From assembly GCA_004563715.1 (NCBI GenBank), contig SIRX01000101.1, positions 1-56,168 of the forward strand: a stretch of 56,168 nucleotides of DNA, written 5' to 3'. Below, one piece after another: positions 17,373 through 24,924 of the stretch (position 1 is its first letter; every line of letters starts with the position of its first letter). A program made the translations under genes and the position numbers. The notes beneath the pieces were generated by a model. The model saw only the letters and a list, made by a program, of their open reading frames with translations, was not told the DNA's origin and did not search any database. This stretch comes from Actinomycetota bacterium (GTDB taxonomy: Bacteria; Actinomycetota; Rubrobacteria; Rubrobacterales; Rubrobacteraceae).

Positions 17373-18576
17373 CCGATCAGTGCAACACGGTAGGTTTTGG
17401 GTGTTGTTCGGATCGGAGGTGCACGAGTGGCGAGACTGGGTCGTCCTGGAGGGTTGTCTGCTGCAGGAAAGAAGGAGTTATGGGAGCGGTGGAGGGCCGG
17501 AGAGTCCATAAGCGACATCGCCCGGGCCCTACAGAAGGCTCCCGGCTCCATCCACACAATGATCGAGGCCACCGGCGGCTTCTCTCCGCCCACTCGGCGC
17601 AGGCGAAGCTGTGCACTCACTCCCTCAGAGCGGGAGGAGATCTCCCGCGGGCTGGCCACCGGAGAATCTCTTCGGGCAATCGCTTGTCGGTTGGGCCGCT
17701 GTGCTTCCACCGTGTGCCGGGAAGTAGAGCGCAACGGCGGGCGCAACAGATACCGAGCCGCAAAGGCCGAGGAGCGGAGCTGGCAGAGAGCCCGGCGTCC
17801 GAAAAGATGCTTGCTAGCGATGGTGGCAGAAAAGCTCAAGGAGGACTGGTCGCCACAGCAGATCTCCGGCTGGCTCAAAAGAGAGTATCCTTCCGATGAG
17901 GCGATGCGCGTGTCACACGAGACCATCTACCGCACCCTGTTTGTGCAGGCCAGAGGCGTTCTCAAAAGGGAGCTGCTCGCCCACCTCAGGAGCAGGCGGA
18001 TGATGCGTAAGTCCCGACGCGCTTCAACGAGAGGACAGCCGCGCGGACAGATCAAGGAAGCCGTCTCCATCCGTGAGCGTCCTCCGGAGGCAGAGGACCG
18101 TGCGGTGCCTGGACACTGGGAAGGGGATCTGCTCTCAGGATCTCGCAACACCCACATCGCCACCCTGGTCGAACGCAGCTCGCGCTTTGTCATGTTGGTG
18201 CGGGTAGGCGGCAAAGATACCGAGAGCGTCGTCGCGGCTCTCAGCGAGCAGATAAGGCGGCTGCCCAAGACCATGATCGACACCCTAACTTGGGACCGGG
18301 GACCGGAGATGGCCGCCCACAAGAAGTTCACGGTAGCCACCGACGTTTCCGTCTACTTCTGCGATCCGAAGAGTCCCTGGCAGCGGGGCACGAGTGAGAA
18401 CACAAACAGACTGCTCAGGCAGTACCTGCCCAGGAAGACCGATCTCTCAGTACACAGCCAACAAGACCTCGACCTGATCGCACTGAAGCTCAATACGAGA
18501 CCGCGCAAAACTTTAAGCTACAGCACCCCGGCTGCTACACTGGCTGAGGCTGTTGCGCTCACCAGTTGAACCCACC
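17362..18576 (+). mobile_element. IS30-family insertion sequence, 1215 bp
   Basis: The imperfect terminal inverted repeats start GGTGG at both ends and match at 21 of 26 positions: left 17362-17387, right 18551-18576. They enclose one transposase gene whose stop codon sits inside the right repeat. The dinucleotide TT flanks both sides and could be a 2-bp target duplication, which suits IS30 elements. It inserted between two convergent backbone blocks, at the 5' edge of the STAND remnant. Both ends and the reading frame look intact. Confidence 0.85.
17427..18569 (+). CDS. IS30-family transposase
   Basis: About 380 residues. N-terminal helix-turn-helix regions (LSAAGKKELWERWRAGESIS; then LTPSEREEISRGLATGESLR and IACRLGRCASTVCREVERNG) are followed by an rve-type DDE core: GHWEGDLL (first Asp), LTWDRGPEMA (second Asp) and SPWQRGTSENTNRLLRQYLP (Glu). 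These are the standard IS30 signatures. The preferred start is GTG at 17427, with GGAGGT at 17415-17420; an in-frame TTG at 17397 lacks a ribosome site. No frameshift or internal stop is seen, so the enzyme could be active. Confidence 0.93.
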   Translation: MARLGRPGGLSAAGKKELWERWRAGESISDIARALQKAPGSIHTMIEATGGFSPPTRRRRSCALTPSEREEISRGLATGESLRAIACRLGRCASTVCREVERNGGRNRYRAAKAEERSWQRARRPKRCLLAMVAEKLKEDWSPQQISGWLKREYPSDEAMRVSHETIYRTLFVQARGVLKRELLAHLRSRRMMRKSRRASTRGQPRGQIKEAVSIRERPPEAEDRAVPGHWEGDLLSGSRNTHIATLVERSSRFVMLVRVGGKDTESVVAALSEQIRRLPKTMIDTLTWDRGPEMAAHKKFTVATDVSVYFCDPKSPWQRGTSENTNRLLRQYLPRKTDLSVHSQQDLDLIALKLNTRPRKTLSYSTPAATLAEAVALTS

Positions 18577-18633: not shown

Positions 18634-19590
18634 TCAGATCGGTAGAGTATTGTACTGATATGCTCTACTGGCTAGTTCCTCAGCTCTCCTTATATACCGC
18701 ATCGTCGTCTTGGGGTCTTCGTGTCCGAGAAACTGCTGTATTATAAGTAGAGGAGCTTCGTTTACGGCCATGTTGGTACCGACGGTGTGACGGATGGAGT
18801 GCGGGCTTATGGCTTTGGTTATGCCGGCAGCGTTGGCGTATCTCTTTACGAGGTAGCGGACCATGCGGGTTGTGAGGGGCTTGTCCCTGCCCTCACGGGA
18901 GGCGAAGAGCGGTTTGCGGGCGTCGGTGCGGGAGGTAAGGCTGCGCTCGGTGAGGAGGACGTAGCGCTGAACGAGCTTCCAGAGGTCCGGAGAGACGGGG
19001 ACGTTGCGGGTTTTGTCGCCCTTGCCGCGGACGCGGAGGAAGACCTGGTCCTCCCCCACCTCTTGGAAGTCTCCCACTTTCACTTCCACAATCTCGGCTT
19101 CTCGCAGGCCGCCGCCGGCCATGACCGCCAGGAGCACGTAGTCCCGGTAGTTGTTCTGGCGAGCGGCGTTCAGCATCCGCGATAGCTCGTCCTCGGTGAG
19201 GATGTTGTAGGAGGGATCCTGCTGTACGCGGGGGCTCTTTGCGAAGAACTTGAGGGCTTCCGGGTTTATGGTGGTCACGCCGCCCATGTACGCGAACGTC
19301 AGAAAGCGGCGCATGGTGGTGAGCTTCTTGGCGGCTGTGGCCGGGGCGTAGGCGGAGATCAGGCTCTCCCGGTAGAAAGAGAGGTCTTCGGGCGTCAGGT
19401 GTCCCAGCTCTTTGCCCAGATCCCCACGCACGTAGGCCAGGAACATCTGGATCTCTGTATTATACGTTTTTTTGGTCTGGGGGCTGGTAAGGGTGCGGAG
19501 GTAGACAGCGAGCAGGCGTTCGGTGTCGTTTTCCGGGGTTGCTGGTTGGGCGTGGTCCTGACGGTCGGGAAGGTTACTCCGAGGGGTCAT
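18634..19590 (-). CDS. XerC/XerD-like tyrosine recombinase
   Basis: A 318-residue tyrosine recombinase with an N-terminal SAM-like DNA-binding domain (about 22-110) and a catalytic domain. The catalytic residues are visible: Arg in GGGLREAEI (about 162), Lys in GKGDKTR (about 188), His-x-x-Arg in SPHSIRHT (about 264), His in LGHEDPKTT (about 288) and the Tyr nucleophile in MRYIR (about 299). Length and motifs fit Xer recombinases. It overlaps the end of apt by 17 nt and has backbone base composition, so it looks like a resident gene and not the integrase of the neighbouring accessory patch. Whether it is the dif-site Xer cannot be told here. Confidence 0.88.
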   Translation of the reverse strand: MTPRSNLPDRQDHAQPATPENDTERLLAVYLRTLTSPQTKKTYNTEIQMFLAYVRGDLGKELGHLTPEDLSFYRESLISAYAPATAAKKLTTMRRFLTFAYMGGVTTINPEALKFFAKSPRVQQDPSYNILTEDELSRMLNAARQNNYRDYVLLAVMAGGGLREAEIVEVKVGDFQEVGEDQVFLRVRGKGDKTRNVPVSPDLWKLVQRYVLLTERSLTSRTDARKPLFASREGRDKPLTTRMVRYLVKRYANAAGITKAISPHSIRHTVGTNMAVNEAPLLIIQQFLGHEDPKTTMRYIRRAEELASRAYQYNTLPI

Positions 19591-20119
19591 CGTAGTTGAT
19601 GATGGAGACGACCTCGTAGCCGGCGAGCTTCTCGCGGCCGTCGAGGTAGCCGAGCTCTATGAGGAAGGCCACACCCGCGACGGTCCCGCCAGCGTTCTCG
19701 ACGAGCTCGCACATGGCGCGGGCGGTGCCACCGGTGGCTAGCAGGTCGTCGGCCACGAGGATGCGGGTTCCGGGGGGTATCGAGTCGGCGTGGGCTTCGA
19801 GGGTGTCGGTGCCGTACTCCAGCTCGTAGGAGGCGGAGATCGTCTCGCGGGGCAGCTTGTTGGGCTTGCGGGCGAGGACCAGGCCCTTCTTCACCTTGTA
19901 GGCGAGGGCCGTGCCGAAGACGAAGCCCCGGGCCTCGGCTGAGAGGACGCGGTCGTACTCCAGGTGCTCGACGGCCCGGGCTAGGGCGTCGGTCGCCTCG
20001 TGCATGGCGGGACCGTCCTCTATCAGGGGCGTTATGTCCTTGAAGGAGATGCCGGGGTGAGGGTAGTCGGGGACGGTTCGGATGTGCCGCTCCAGGTTGT
20101 GCACCGTGGGCTTTGTCAT
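19574..20119 (-). CDS. apt: adenine phosphoribosyltransferase
   Basis: A 181-residue APRT that salvages adenine to AMP using PRPP. It has the N-terminal IRTVPDYPHPGISFKDITP segment, EARGFVFG near 63, the KLP/Y region RKPNKLPRETISASYELEYG and the PRPP-binding motif VADDLLATGGTARA near 122-135. It lies 9 nt downstream of the MerR gene and overlaps the recombinase gene that follows it. Confidence 0.96.
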   Translation of the reverse strand: MTKPTVHNLERHIRTVPDYPHPGISFKDITPLIEDGPAMHEATDALARAVEHLEYDRVLSAEARGFVFGTALAYKVKKGLVLARKPNKLPRETISASYELEYGTDTLEAHADSIPPGTRILVADDLLATGGTARAMCELVENAGGTVAGVAFLIELGYLDGREKLAGYEVVSIINYDDPSE

Positions 20120-20128
20120 CGGGCGGGG

Positions 20129-20983
20129 TCAGCCTCTCTCGTTGGGGAAGGAACCGGGCGCGAACGAGTCGATCGCGTTGGCCATCATGAGTTCTTTGAG
20201 ACGCGAGTCAACGGCGGCCAGGTGGCGGGCCTTGCCTACCGCCTCGCTCACGCGCTGCTCGTCGCCACTGCGCAGCTCGGGGTTGAGGATCTGCTTGAAC
20301 ATCGCCGCCTCGCGCTCTACGGCGGCCATGATGCCGCGTAGGTGACGCGGCTGTATCGAGTACTTCGCCATTTCCTGGGCCATGCGGGCTATCTCGGCGT
20401 CGCGCTGGGTAAGCTCCCCGTTGCGCCCGATGACCCCGACGGAGATCAACTCCTCCACAAAGCGTGTGTCGGCCTCCAGGGAGTCGGCGAGCTCCTCGCG
20501 GGTGTAGGTGCGGTCCTCCAAGACGCGGGACAGCTCGTTCGAGGCCTCGTTGGCGGGCATTATCGGGGCGCCGCCCTCGATGCGCTTCTTTATGACTTTG
20601 AGCGGCAGGTACTCCTCCTCCTGGAGCTTCAGGATGTACTTCAGAAGCTCCACGTCCTGGCTAGAGAACAGCCGGTATCCGCCCCGGGTGCGGTTCAGGC
20701 TGATCAAACGCCGCCGCTCCAGGTAGCGGATCTTGCTGACCGACAGCGACGGGTAGTCGGGCCTGAGCCGCTCGACGACCTCGCCGATGGTGTAGCTGTC
20801 TTTGCCGCCGGACGGCTGGCCGGGGGCGCGCTCGGGGACACGCTCGGGCGCATCTTCGTAGAGCCGCTGCTCCGAGGGGCACCTTTCCGGATGCCCTTCC
20901 GCGCGTCCGGCGGGGGCGTCGAGCGCCGTTTCCTGGTTCTCGTAACCTGCGGTGTGGTTACCTCTGCCTTCTCCGTGATCCAC
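20129..20983 (-). CDS. MerR-family regulator, FtsR-like
   Basis: A 284-residue protein. After a charged, poorly conserved N-terminus of about 60 residues, a MerR winged helix begins at YTIGEVVERLRPDYPSLSVS, with IRYLERRRLISLNRTRGGYR and LLKYILKLQEEEYLPLKVIK. The C-terminal half (about 130-284) is helical. The pairing of an FHA (GarA-like) gene with a MerR gene of this shape matches the actinobacterial garA/ftsR region, where FtsR of Corynebacterium affects ftsZ expression; the equivalence is inferred from architecture and neighbours. The start is GTG at 20983. Confidence 0.8.
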   Translation of the reverse strand: MDHGEGRGNHTAGYENQETALDAPAGRAEGHPERCPSEQRLYEDAPERVPERAPGQPSGGKDSYTIGEVVERLRPDYPSLSVSKIRYLERRRLISLNRTRGGYRLFSSQDVELLKYILKLQEEEYLPLKVIKKRIEGGAPIMPANEASNELSRVLEDRTYTREELADSLEADTRFVEELISVGVIGRNGELTQRDAEIARMAQEMAKYSIQPRHLRGIMAAVEREAAMFKQILNPELRSGDEQRVSEAVGKARHLAAVDSRLKELMMANAIDSFAPGSFPNERG

Positions 20984-21065: not shown

Positions 21066-21518
21066 CTAGGTAAAAACGAACTTGAAACGGTACTTGCCGA
21101 CCTGTATCTCGTCTCCGTTGCGGAGGTCGACCGCGTCGACCCGGACCCGGTTGACGTACGTACCGTTCAGGCTGCCCACGTCCCGGATCCTGTACCCGCG
21201 GCCGCCACGCAGTATCTCGGCGTGCTCCCGGGAGACCGTGACGTCGTCCAGGAAGATGCTGCTCTGTGGGCTGCGGCCGACCGTTACGACCTCTTCGCCG
21301 ATGTCGTGCATCCGCCGCCCCGCGGTGCCCTCTACCTGGTCGAGCTCGATCAGGGCGGCGCCGTTGAAGCCGCCTTCTATGGGCGATAGAGCCTCCTCGT
21401 CGGAGAAGACGGGTGAGTAGGCGACCGTGGAATCAACGTGGGCCAGCCGGGCGCCGCAGTTGCCGCAGTACCTCATGTTCTCGGTGGTCGTCGCGCCGCA
21501 CTCGGGACAATAGTTCAT
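21066..21518 (-). CDS. zinc-ribbon FHA-domain protein (GarA-like)
   Basis: A 150-residue protein. The N-terminus is a zinc ribbon with two Cys pairs (CPECG and CGNCG, residues 4-22). A C-terminal FHA domain from about residue 70 shows the phosphothreonine-binding residues in VGRSPQSSIFLDDVTVSREH and GSLNGTYVNRVRV. FHA proteins of this size (GarA/OdhI) are phosphorylated by Ser/Thr kinases and control 2-oxoglutarate metabolism. The short DSTVAYSP segment before the FHA domain is a possible phosphorylation site but not the classical GarA ETT motif. It overlaps the rsiG-like gene by 4 nt. Confidence 0.85.
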   Translation of the reverse strand: MNYCPECGATTTENMRYCGNCGARLAHVDSTVAYSPVFSDEEALSPIEGGFNGAALIELDQVEGTAGRRMHDIGEEVVTVGRSPQSSIFLDDVTVSREHAEILRGGRGYRIRDVGSLNGTYVNRVRVDAVDLRNGDEIQVGKYRFKFVFT

Positions 21519-21784
21519 GCTCCAGGCTCCCCCTCCTGCCGTCCCATCAACACCCGGGCCAGCTCCTCCGGCGAGAGCGAGAGGCTCCCCCGGCGCACGA
21601 GCTCCGAACGGATGAGGTCTATCCGCCCCTGCAGAACCCGGCGGCGGTAGCTTATCTCCCGCTCCTCCTCGGCCAGGCGCTCCAGAAGCTCCTTGAGTTC
21701 GTTTTCGGAGACAGCGGTCAGGTCAGAGGTCTCCTCCCAATCAAACCCCTCCATGCCGCCCTCCGAAGGTTCAAGCTCGCTCAT
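21515..21784 (-). CDS. rsiG: RsiG-like c-di-GMP-responsive anti-sigma factor
   Basis: An 89-residue, mostly helical protein. Residues 41-56 match the RsiG c-di-GMP signature E(x3)S(x2)R(x3)Q(x3)D exactly: Glu41, Ser45, Arg48, Gln52, Asp56. The flanking sequence (about 26-68) is a heptad-like coiled coil, followed by a short C-terminal helix. In Streptomyces RsiG has two such motifs and, with c-di-GMP, holds the sigma factor WhiG; the Rubrobacter radiotolerans form has one motif and works as a homodimer. This protein has one motif, so dimerisation is expected. No whiG-like sigma gene is in the window. It overlaps the FHA gene by 4 nt. Confidence 0.8.
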   Translation of the reverse strand: MSELEPSEGGMEGFDWEETSDLTAVSENELKELLERLAEEEREISYRRRVLQGRIDLIRSELVRRGSLSLSPEELARVLMGRQEGEPGA

Positions 21785-21791
21785 GACCGGC

Positions 21792-21797
21792 AGTATA
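21792..21797 (-). promoter_or_regulatory. -10 box directly before rsiG
   Basis: On the minus strand TATACT (21797-21792) lies 7 nt before the rsiG ATG, suggesting a leaderless transcript. An identical TATACT sits 23 bp upstream (21820-21815). No clear -35 is visible for either. Confidence 0.4.
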
Positions 21798-21823
21798 ACT
21801 TCCTCTGAACCTGAAGTATAGTC

Positions 21824-24379
21824 TTAGGGCGCGCCTTCTCCACCAGACGCCTCCTGTTCTTCGCTCTCTATCAGGGAACGGACGACCCCGGCGTACTCCC
21901 GGGCCAGCCCGGCCGGTGGGTTGGCGTCCCCCTCTGAGGTTTCGGCGTAGACGTAGAAAAGCGGGTTATCCGGGTCCGGGAGCATCAGCACCCAACCGCC
22001 GTTGGCGTTGAGCTTGACGCCGTCGGCGAGGATGGCGTCCGGGTCGCCGCCGAACCGCTCGGCGAGCCCGCGCATCACGCGCCCCTTGGCCGACCAGGGG
22101 CACTCGAGCTTCTCCCGGGCAACGTTGCCGAAGGCGCCCCCAAACTGCCGGCGGGTCTCGGAGAGCGGTGTCTCCCGGAACAGCTCCAGCGTGCGGGCCA
22201 GGGTCATAAAGCAGTCGGGGGCCGGCAGGAAGGCCGGAAAGATGTAGTGGCCCTCGCCCGTGCCCGCGATATCGGCCCCGGTCTCGGCCCCTTTGAGCGC
22301 GGTGTTGCCCAGGCCGGTACGGCTCTGCACCAGGGTTCCGCCGTGGGCCTCTACGAGCTCCCGGTATCCGTAGCTCAGGTTGATGGGCAGCACGGTCCTC
22401 CGCGGCCGCATCCGCTCCAGGATACAGGCGAGCATCACGTCCGGCGGCACGGGGTCGCCCCGGTCGTCCACGAAACGGACGTCCTCTCCCGTGGGGCCTA
22501 CCACGCAACCGAACGCGGCCTCGACCGTCGGCACGATGCGGGAGACCCGGTCCAGGCCCTCCTCCAGGTCGGACGCGGCGCGTCCACCGACCACGTTGGC
22601 GTTCGCAAAGCCCTCCATGACCACGGCGTTGACCCCCAGCCGGGAGAAGACCCGGCTGGCGACGAGGCTCGCCACGCCGCCGGAGAAGTCCACGACGAGC
22701 GTGCCGCCGGCTACCTTCTCCCGGTCGGCGGCACGCTCGAGGCGCTCGACGTACTGCTCCACGGCCCGGCCCGGGTAGATGAGCTGCCCTATGTCGCCCG
22801 CGTAGGCCCGGCGGTACTCCTCGCGCACGAAGACCTTCTCGACCGACCGCTGGTCGGATTCGGGCATCGGGGTGGCGTCGGCGCTGAAGAACAGGATCTC
22901 CACGTCGTCTGGGTCGTCGCCGCTCCTCAGGTGGGCTCCGGCCGAGGACTTGCCGGCGAGCACGTCGTGGCGCACCACGCCCGCGTGGGCCGCCCGCAGG
23001 TCCCGCACGTTGATACCCGTCCCGAGCAGGGCGCTCGTCATCGCCCGCTTGGCGACCTGGGCCGACGGCGAAGCGTCACGCCCCAGCGTCACCACGGAGC
23101 CCGGGGCCAGGGTCGTCCCGAAGGAGGAGGCGAGACGGATCACGAACTCCGGCGTCAGGTCCACGTTGAACTTGCCCGAGACGATGCCGCCCTTAAAGAC
23201 CGTGCGCAGGCCCATCGTTTCGTGGATCAGGCTCTGCGTGATGTTCGCGCCGCTCTCGACCATCTTGTGCGGGAACACCTTTACGTCCGGGGCGATGGTC
23301 GCCCCCTCGCCGACTATCACCTCGTCGCCGAGGGCGCTGCGCTCCAGGACGCGGGCGCGGGCCTGCACGTAGCACGAGCGGCCCACGAGGGCGTCCACCA
23401 GCTCGGCCCCCTCGCCGATGTAGGAGCCGTCGGCGACGACGCTGTGCTCCACGCGGGCGCCAGAGGCGACGACCGTGTTCGTCTCGATCACCGAGTAGGG
23501 GCTTACGTACGCGCCGTCGTCCACGCGCACGTTCTCCCCGATAAACACGGGCCCCTCCAGCTCCGACTCGTTTACCCGGGCGCGGCGTCCGACGTAGATG
23601 TTCTCCCGCAAGCGCGTCCCGGGCGGCCGGACGCCGCGCATCTTGCCGGCGAGCACGTCCCGCTGGGCGCCCATGTACTGCTCCAGGTTGCCGATGTCTT
23701 CCCAGTACTCGCCGGTGACGTAGCCGTAGAGCGGCCGCCCGGCGTTCAGGAGCTTCGGAAACAGCTCCTTGGAGAAATCGTACTCGTCCTTTTTCGGGTC
23801 CGGGATCTCGTCCAGGACCGAGGCTTCGAGGAGGTAGATGCCGGTGTTGACCGTGTCGGAGAAGACCTGGCCCCAGGCCGGCTTCTCGAGAAAGCGCGAG
23901 ATGCGTCCGTCCTCCTCGGTGATGACGATCCCGAAGTCCAGCGGGTTCTCGACGCTCTTGAGGACCATCGTGGCCTCGGCGCCCTTCTCCTCGTGGAAAT
24001 GCGCCAGGTGGGTCAGGTCGGCGTCGGTGAGGGCGTCGCCGCTGATCACGAGGAACCGTTCGCCGTCGAGGTCGAGCTGCTCCTCGGCCATTTTCACCGA
24101 GCCGGCGGTCCCCGCCGGGGTGTCCTCGATGGAGTAGCGGATGTCCACACCCCAGTCGGAGCCGTCGCCGAAGTAGTCCTGTATCTCATCCGGCATGAAC
24201 TGGAGCGTCACCACGATGTCCGTGTAGCCGTGGCGCTTGAGCAGGTTCACGATGTGCTCCATGCACGGCACGCCGACGATGGGGATCATGGGCTTCGGCT
24301 GGTTGCTCGTCAGCGGCCGCAGGCGGGTCCCCTGCCCGCCGGCCATGATGACCGCTTTCTTGCCCCTGGTGTCTCTCAC
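21824..24379 (-). CDS. sugar-1-phosphate nucleotidyltransferase fused to a degenerate phosphomannomutase-like domain
   Basis: An 851-residue fusion. Residues 8-240 form a nucleotidyltransferase (GGQGTRLRPLT at 14-24, then FLVISGDALTD and FLEKPAWGQ); 255-370 a left-handed beta-helix of hexapeptide repeats; 385-835 a phosphohexomutase fold. The mutase part keeps GRDASPS (about 433) and a GTGEGHY sugar loop (about 708), but the phosphoserine loop TASHNP is replaced by LRSGDDP (about 486) and the metal loop DGDxDR by a GPTGEDV stretch (about 630). The first domain probably makes GDP-mannose or a similar NDP-sugar; the second is likely non-catalytic. GTG at 24379 overlaps the pgsA stop by 4 nt. 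Confidence 0.85.
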   Translation of the reverse strand: MRDTRGKKAVIMAGGQGTRLRPLTSNQPKPMIPIVGVPCMEHIVNLLKRHGYTDIVVTLQFMPDEIQDYFGDGSDWGVDIRYSIEDTPAGTAGSVKMAEEQLDLDGERFLVISGDALTDADLTHLAHFHEEKGAEATMVLKSVENPLDFGIVITEEDGRISRFLEKPAWGQVFSDTVNTGIYLLEASVLDEIPDPKKDEYDFSKELFPKLLNAGRPLYGYVTGEYWEDIGNLEQYMGAQRDVLAGKMRGVRPPGTRLRENIYVGRRARVNESELEGPVFIGENVRVDDGAYVSPYSVIETNTVVASGARVEHSVVADGSYIGEGAELVDALVGRSCYVQARARVLERSALGDEVIVGEGATIAPDVKVFPHKMVESGANITQSLIHETMGLRTVFKGGIVSGKFNVDLTPEFVIRLASSFGTTLAPGSVVTLGRDASPSAQVAKRAMTSALLGTGINVRDLRAAHAGVVRHDVLAGKSSAGAHLRSGDDPDDVEILFFSADATPMPESDQRSVEKVFVREEYRRAYAGDIGQLIYPGRAVEQYVERLERAADREKVAGGTLVVDFSGGVASLVASRVFSRLGVNAVVMEGFANANVVGGRAASDLEEGLDRVSRIVPTVEAAFGCVVGPTGEDVRFVDDRGDPVPPDVMLACILERMRPRRTVLPINLSYGYRELVEAHGGTLVQSRTGLGNTALKGAETGADIAGTGEGHYIFPAFLPAPDCFMTLARTLELFRETPLSETRRQFGGAFGNVAREKLECPWSAKGRVMRGLAERFGGDPDAILADGVKLNANGGWVLMLPDPDNPLFYVYAETSEGDANPPAGLAREYAGVVRSLIESEEQEASGGEGAP

Positions 24380-24924
24380 GTAGTACCTCCTCTACCCGAG
24401 ATGCGGAGTATGTTGATCACGTACAGGGCCGCCGCCAGCAGCGAGAGACCGAAACCGACGTAGAATATCCCCTCGCTCACGGCCCCGGGGAAAAAGATGA
24501 CGAGGGCCACGGCCGCCATGAGCACGGCGGTGGCCGCCTTGCCGACCGGGTTGACCGGGATCTTGCCGCCGAACACCAGCCCGCCGACCAGGGCGAGCAG
24601 GTCCCGCCCCACCAGGATGGCCACCGCCCACACCGGCAGGAGACCCCTCAGGGCGAGCACCACGGCGGCGCCGGAGAGCATCAGACGGTCGGCCAGGGGG
24701 TCCAGTATCTTCCCCACCAGCGTGGGCTGCGTCCGGCGCGCTATCTGGCCGTCGAGAAAGTCCGTCAGCGCCGCCAGAATGAAGACCGCAACCGCCGCCA
24801 TGTCGGCCTCCGCGAGCAGCAATAGCACCACCACCGGGACCATCGTCAGGCGCAAGAGCGAGAGGATGTTTGGGATGGTAAAGACCTGGCGTCCCAACTC
24901 CTTTGCGGCTCCCCCTGACGGCAT
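24376..24924 (-). CDS. pgsA: CDP-diacylglycerol-glycerol-3-phosphate 3-phosphatidyltransferase
   Basis: A 182-residue CDP-alcohol phosphatidyltransferase. The family motif D(x2)DG(x2)AR(x8)G(x3)D(x3)D is complete (DFLDGQIARR then GKILDPLADRLMLSG, about residues 55-80). Several transmembrane helices cover the rest. It makes phosphatidylglycerol phosphate. The substrate call (glycerol-3-phosphate rather than inositol) rests on similarity to PgsA and is the less certain part. It lies 23 nt after der. Confidence 0.87.
   Translation of the reverse strand: MPSGGAAKELGRQVFTIPNILSLLRLTMVPVVVLLLLAEADMAAVAVFILAALTDFLDGQIARRTQPTLVGKILDPLADRLMLSGAAVVLALRGLLPVWAVAILVGRDLLALVGGLVFGGKIPVNPVGKAATAVLMAAVALVIFFPGAVSEGIFYVGFGLSLLAAALYVINILRISGRGGTT

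Follow-up and report, generated by a model that had tools for sequence, protein, structure and literature searches.

Two solved forms of the anti-sigma factor RsiG are the closest described relatives of the gene reported here. In Streptomyces venezuelae (PDB 6PFJ, 6PFV), RsiG is monomeric and carries the c-di-GMP-binding E-S-R-Q-D motif twice in one chain, with the sigma factor WhiG as its target. A single-motif form has been described and solved in the Rubrobacteraceae, in Rubrobacter radiotolerans (PDB 7LQ2, 7LQ3, 7LQ4; PNAS 2021, PMC8325347). The mixture of RsiG and WhiG from that species has an affinity for c-di-GMP near 1 micromolar. Contacts to c-di-GMP from T237, R239 and K243 in sigma-4 of WhiG are a trait of the R. 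radiotolerans complex; S. venezuelae WhiG, bound in the twin-motif complex, makes no sigma-4 contact to the ligand, and that complex still works (PMC8325347). Start-site mapping in R. radiotolerans assigned pili and c-di-GMP enzymes to the WhiG regulon (PMC8325347).

A second described system concerns the genes beside rsiG. The odhI/garA-ftsR cluster, an FHA gene followed by ftsR, is conserved among Actinobacteria with a variable upstream region, according to the sections of PMC6683498 that treat it, and in those sections the account of the odhI upstream region does not mention rsiG. The main text of PMC8325347 refers to neither FHA nor synteny, and a literature search found no paper joining RsiG, c-di-GMP and FHA.

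Here we describe an rsiG gene in a further member of the Rubrobacteraceae (the host), located in a stretch of 56,168 nucleotides that was analysed as a whole (the window). Its product shares the c-di-GMP motif and the predicted WhiG target with the S. venezuelae protein, and the single motif and the length class with that of R. radiotolerans. The initial annotation had presented it as a single-motif RsiG outside the classical sporulating Actinobacteria, and the identification holds; the novelty is weaker, because the host shares its family with R. radiotolerans, where the switch has already been solved (PMC8325347), and the gene adds one more Rubrobacteraceae species to the published system. 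What is new beyond that switch is only a fixed gene neighbourhood and a set of relatives without the c-di-GMP contacts, with two further points, a duplication in one relative (L128) and a conserved element before rsiG that resembles an FtsR box. The features of the locus are:

19574-20119, minus strand: phosphoribosyltransferase (adenine phosphoribosyltransferase-like), downstream neighbour, order conserved (PF00156)
20129-20983, minus strand: ftsR, MerR-family regulator, 284 aa as the longest ORF (NF050798 FtsR, 176 bits against a cut-off of 150)
21066-21518, minus strand: zinc-ribbon and FHA protein (OdhI/GarA-like), 150 aa (PF00498, 1.9e-20); its start codon overlaps the rsiG stop
21515-21784, minus strand: rsiG, 89 aa, ATG start, predicted single-motif c-di-GMP-dependent anti-sigma factor (PF22802; PDB 7LQ4)
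21617-21664, minus strand: c-di-GMP-binding motif E(x3)S(x2)R(x3)Q(x3)D, rsiG codons 41-56, exact match
21792-21825, minus strand: predicted promoter element immediately 5' of rsiG, AAGACTATACTTCAGGTTCAGAGGAAGTTATACT; a -10-like TATACT lies 7 bases before the ATG
21824-24379, minus strand: sugar-1-phosphate nucleotidyltransferase/phosphomannomutase fusion, 851 aa, upstream neighbour (PF00483, PF02878-PF02880)
24376-24924, minus strand: CDP-alcohol phosphatidyltransferase (PgsA-like), upstream neighbour (PF01066, 107 bits)

Judged by its sequence, the window ORF is a true single-motif RsiG. Residues 41-56 read EREISYRRRVLQGRID, with E41, S45, R48, Q52 and D56 matching the motif exactly, as first noted, and the pattern E...S..R...[QH]...D occurs at this one place among the 112,332 residues of the six translated frames of the window. 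The proposed identity is upheld by the Pfam RsiG model PF22802 (70.6 bits against a cut-off of 27; a profile search of NCBIfam gave no model matching RsiG) and by the nearest solved structures, those of R. radiotolerans RsiG (7LQ4, 7LQ3, 7LQ2), which can be aligned over 68 residues at E=1e-22 and from which it has diverged in sequence. S. venezuelae RsiG (6PFJ) follows at E=1e-10, and both of its motifs match. The five motif residues are invariant in an alignment of 10 Rubrobacteraceae sequences, and an AlphaFold2 single-chain model puts all of them within a single long helix spanning residues 27-64 (block pLDDT 88-95 for the motif helix); the second helix, 72-80, is short and carries no motif. 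On ideal-helix geometry they spread over about 80-100 degrees and so occupy one face, as the initial annotation had expected. A profile search finds a single RsiG in the host's own genome, and close relatives among genome contigs are nearly all from Rubrobacter. One other Rubrobacteraceae genome (G025) has two single-motif RsiG matches, both intact and each on its own contig (L198, L203), together with two WhiG matches above cut-off.

A cognate sigma factor and diguanylate cyclases, both of which the initial annotation had proposed to look for, are present in the genome, the latter represented by 12 GGDEF proteins. The sigma factor gene is:

C155:34793-35452; L002:1372-2199: whiG, FliA/WhiG-type sigma factor, cognate WhiG of the host (FliA/WhiG model, 245.8 bits)

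It is the only host sigma factor above the FliA/WhiG cut-off, the second best scoring 118 bits; it is flanked by dprA-like and rpsB-like ORFs, both named from sequence, and in the PDB it matches R. radiotolerans WhiG (7LQ4_A) best. In sigma-2, the c-di-GMP-contacting residues K53, G57 and R58 are all conserved. At the sigma-4 contacts, placed on the GLTLREIGK stretch by the spacing in PMC8325347, the host has diverged from R. radiotolerans: T237 is retained, R239 is replaced by K and K243 by Q. Since position 243 is K or R in every other motif-intact relative read (G038, with a partial WhiG match, was left out of this comparison), binding of the ligand may be looser in the host. Across the host's class, 29 genomes have both RsiG and WhiG, five have neither and six have one only (Fisher P=0.002); part of the co-absences may reflect incomplete assemblies. 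In nine genomes (G010, G011, G015, G016, G017, G023, G026, G030 and G038) whiG and rsiG lie on the same contig about 36-58 kb apart, a distance short enough that joint loss is possible.

Candidate targets of the host WhiG were sought with the flagellar-type promoter consensus of PMC8325347 (TAAA, 14-16 bases, GCCGATAA). The 3.47 Mb searched contain five exact matches, compared with a single match to the reversed pattern. One of the five is at a contig end, and each of the four with readable downstream DNA is followed, at a distance of no more than about 90 bases, by a gene or operon that encodes a GGDEF protein:

Site on C10: GGDEF protein gene downstream
Site on C139: PAS-GGDEF protein gene downstream
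Site on C91: hybrid kinase gene, with a response-regulator GGDEF gene immediately after it
Site on C52: gene for a response regulator-GGDEF-glycosyltransferase fusion, its GGDEF match weak at 28.5 bits

The last of these genes encodes a protein of 774 aa (L148:262-2586, minus strand) that combines a response regulator and the weak GGDEF domain with a family-2 glycosyltransferase under an exact WhiG-type promoter. A site with one mismatch (C169:20611, GCCGATAC) lies just 5' of a prepilin-like gene that is followed by two more prepilin-like genes and preceded by a PAS-GGDEF-EAL gene; most other one-mismatch matches in the genome were discounted as lying inside or against genes. These predicted promoters echo the WhiG regulon of R. 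radiotolerans, with its pili and c-di-GMP enzymes, and GGDEF and pilus-type targets would be common to the two species. Within the window, matches with up to three mismatches number 17 against 11.9 expected at 15-base spacing, which is near chance, and 22 against 11.7 at 16-base spacing, which is above it. None of these window matches lies before the rsiG operon, and the idea that a WhiG-type promoter drives it was rejected on that ground.

The initial annotation had also suggested that rsiG, the FHA gene and ftsR form a wider signalling unit, a suggestion that stands only as a strictly conserved gene neighbourhood. The genes from the CDP-alcohol phosphatidyltransferase through the nucleotidyltransferase/mutase fusion, rsiG, FHA and ftsR to the phosphoribosyltransferase touch or overlap. 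The FHA protein reaches 108 bits with the OdhI model NF041660, below its cut-off of 200, and the true ftsR start may lie further in than that of the longest ORF, as the NF050798 match begins at residue 65. The core rsiG-FHA-ftsR is retained in every Rubrobacteraceae locus of sufficient length, and the order nucleotidyltransferase/mutase, rsiG, FHA, ftsR recurs at locus L057, whose RsiG matches 7LQ4 over the aligned stretch. The FHA gene and ftsR follow one another as in the odhI/garA-ftsR cluster (PMC6683498), with rsiG, absent from the parts of that account dealing with the cluster, upstream of FHA in the host. In a sample of loci across the phylum, some of them the same genome obtained through two collections, FHA and/or ftsR lie near rsiG in all 71 single-motif loci and are absent beside it in 29 of 30 twin-motif loci; the twin-motif loci sampled from large genomes (L083-L093, Streptomyces-like) are, unlike the host's, away from the FHA-ftsR cluster. 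With all 71 at one locus, synteny argues for the single-motif form as the old, vertically inherited state. Beside the end of the host cluster, an ORF resembling an IS30-like transposase was recognised by eye (window 17397-18569, plus strand), within a region of lower G+C content (0.60).

The region directly before rsiG is also conserved. An element, ACTTCAGGTTCAGGGGAGGTTATACT (window 21792-21817), which ends 7-9 bases 5' of the rsiG start, is found in 33 of 49 Rubrobacteraceae loci, and the overlapping part 21801-21825, including AGGTTCAG, is similar to the FtsR box of Corynebacterium glutamicum, with 16 of 25 identities to its consensus (PMC6683498), and lies just 5' of the -10-like TATACT. 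Upstream regions of rsiG in the Rubrobacteraceae average 15.2 of 25 identities to this box against 12.4 in control pieces, and a smaller excess over control is seen in other families with single-motif rsiG. No clear FtsR box is common to the ftsZ promoters of these Rubrobacteraceae, and control of rsiG by FtsR, which the element weakly suggests, is for this reason a lead and not a result.

Several relatives retain the gene pair with altered c-di-GMP contacts. Degenerate RsiG motifs are present at these loci:

L194 (genome G021)
L195 (G022)
L196 (G020)
L197 (G023)
L199 (G026)
L200 (G019)
L076 (G009)

In place of ESRQD, G019 and G026 have EAHRD, G020 has EGLQE, G023 has EAHLN and G009 has ESLQD. 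In these same five genomes, the degenerate-motif genomes with a readable WhiG, K53 of WhiG is changed to R or N; among the genomes whose motif is intact, those with a readable WhiG have K at position 53. The motif is intact in G010 (L056). Because four of the five belong to one genus (g11), the contact losses perhaps represent two events and not five. These five genomes have 4-21 GGDEF matches, so c-di-GMP is probably still made in them. It is conceivable, though we would not favour it, that single-motif rsiG has been a fixed member of the garA-ftsR cluster since ancient times, so that c-di-GMP/WhiG, FHA-based metabolic and FtsR-based division control would be expressed together, and that some Rubrobacteraceae have made the RsiG-WhiG pair independent of c-di-GMP by matched loss of contacts. 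The degenerate pairs are natural material for asking whether sigma capture needs ligand.

Orthology to known RsiG proteins, an intact motif, WhiG, GGDEF proteins and WhiG-type promoter sites are all present in the host, and these genomic data make it very likely that pili and c-di-GMP enzymes are under a switch armed by c-di-GMP. By analogy with R. radiotolerans, two RsiG chains, with one E-S-R-Q-D motif apiece, would associate in an antiparallel coiled coil and jointly bind a c-di-GMP dimer; RsiG and ligand together would hold WhiG inactive, and a drop in c-di-GMP would release it to transcribe c-di-GMP enzyme and type IV pilus genes. The rsiG gene itself would be transcribed from the conserved promoter heading rsiG-FHA-ftsR, with FtsR perhaps as its regulator. 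We hold it to be highly probable that the rsiG product is a c-di-GMP-dependent WhiG antagonist acting through these steps. A motif arising by chance in a helical protein would be one alternative, and charged helices can produce five-residue motifs in this way; a shuffled RsiG sequence contains it in only 39 of 200,000 shuffles, RsiG is present in 34 of the 40 genomes of the class, and the 7LQ4 match and PF22802 score rule this explanation out for practical purposes.

The gene linkage itself could be read as a sign that the protein acts as coiled-coil partner to its FHA or FtsR neighbours and does not regulate WhiG, given its overlap with the FHA gene and the association at all 71 single-motif loci. 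Its direct homology to a protein whose structure was determined in complex with WhiG and c-di-GMP, the co-occurrence of RsiG with WhiG and the position of twin-motif RsiGs away from the FHA-ftsR cluster make this highly improbable. A switch that responds weakly to c-di-GMP, with RsiG as a largely constitutive WhiG antagonist, is unlikely, though less so. The host WhiG has Q at K243 and K at R239, and in genus g11 and in G009 both genes persist despite the loss of WhiG K53 and of residues in the RsiG motif, so that drift of these contacts does happen within the family; against this, the five RsiG motif residues and WhiG K53, G57 and R58 are intact in the host, and the twin-motif complexes function with no sigma-4 contact to the ligand (PMC8325347). 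The c-di-GMP-dependent antagonist remains the preferred reading.

The one twin-motif protein found inside an FHA-ftsR cluster is an RsiG of 155 aa with two complete motifs (L128:4007-4474, minus strand, genome G142), and other sampled members of its family (L098, L105) have single-motif RsiG at the same locus. Its halves are 45% identical, against 18-35% in nine other twin-motif proteins, and they group together (support 0.71) with L098 nearest. L128 apparently arose by a second, independent internal duplication of the RsiG motif, with confidence kept moderate by the short alignment, and it offers a natural second case of twin-motif formation.
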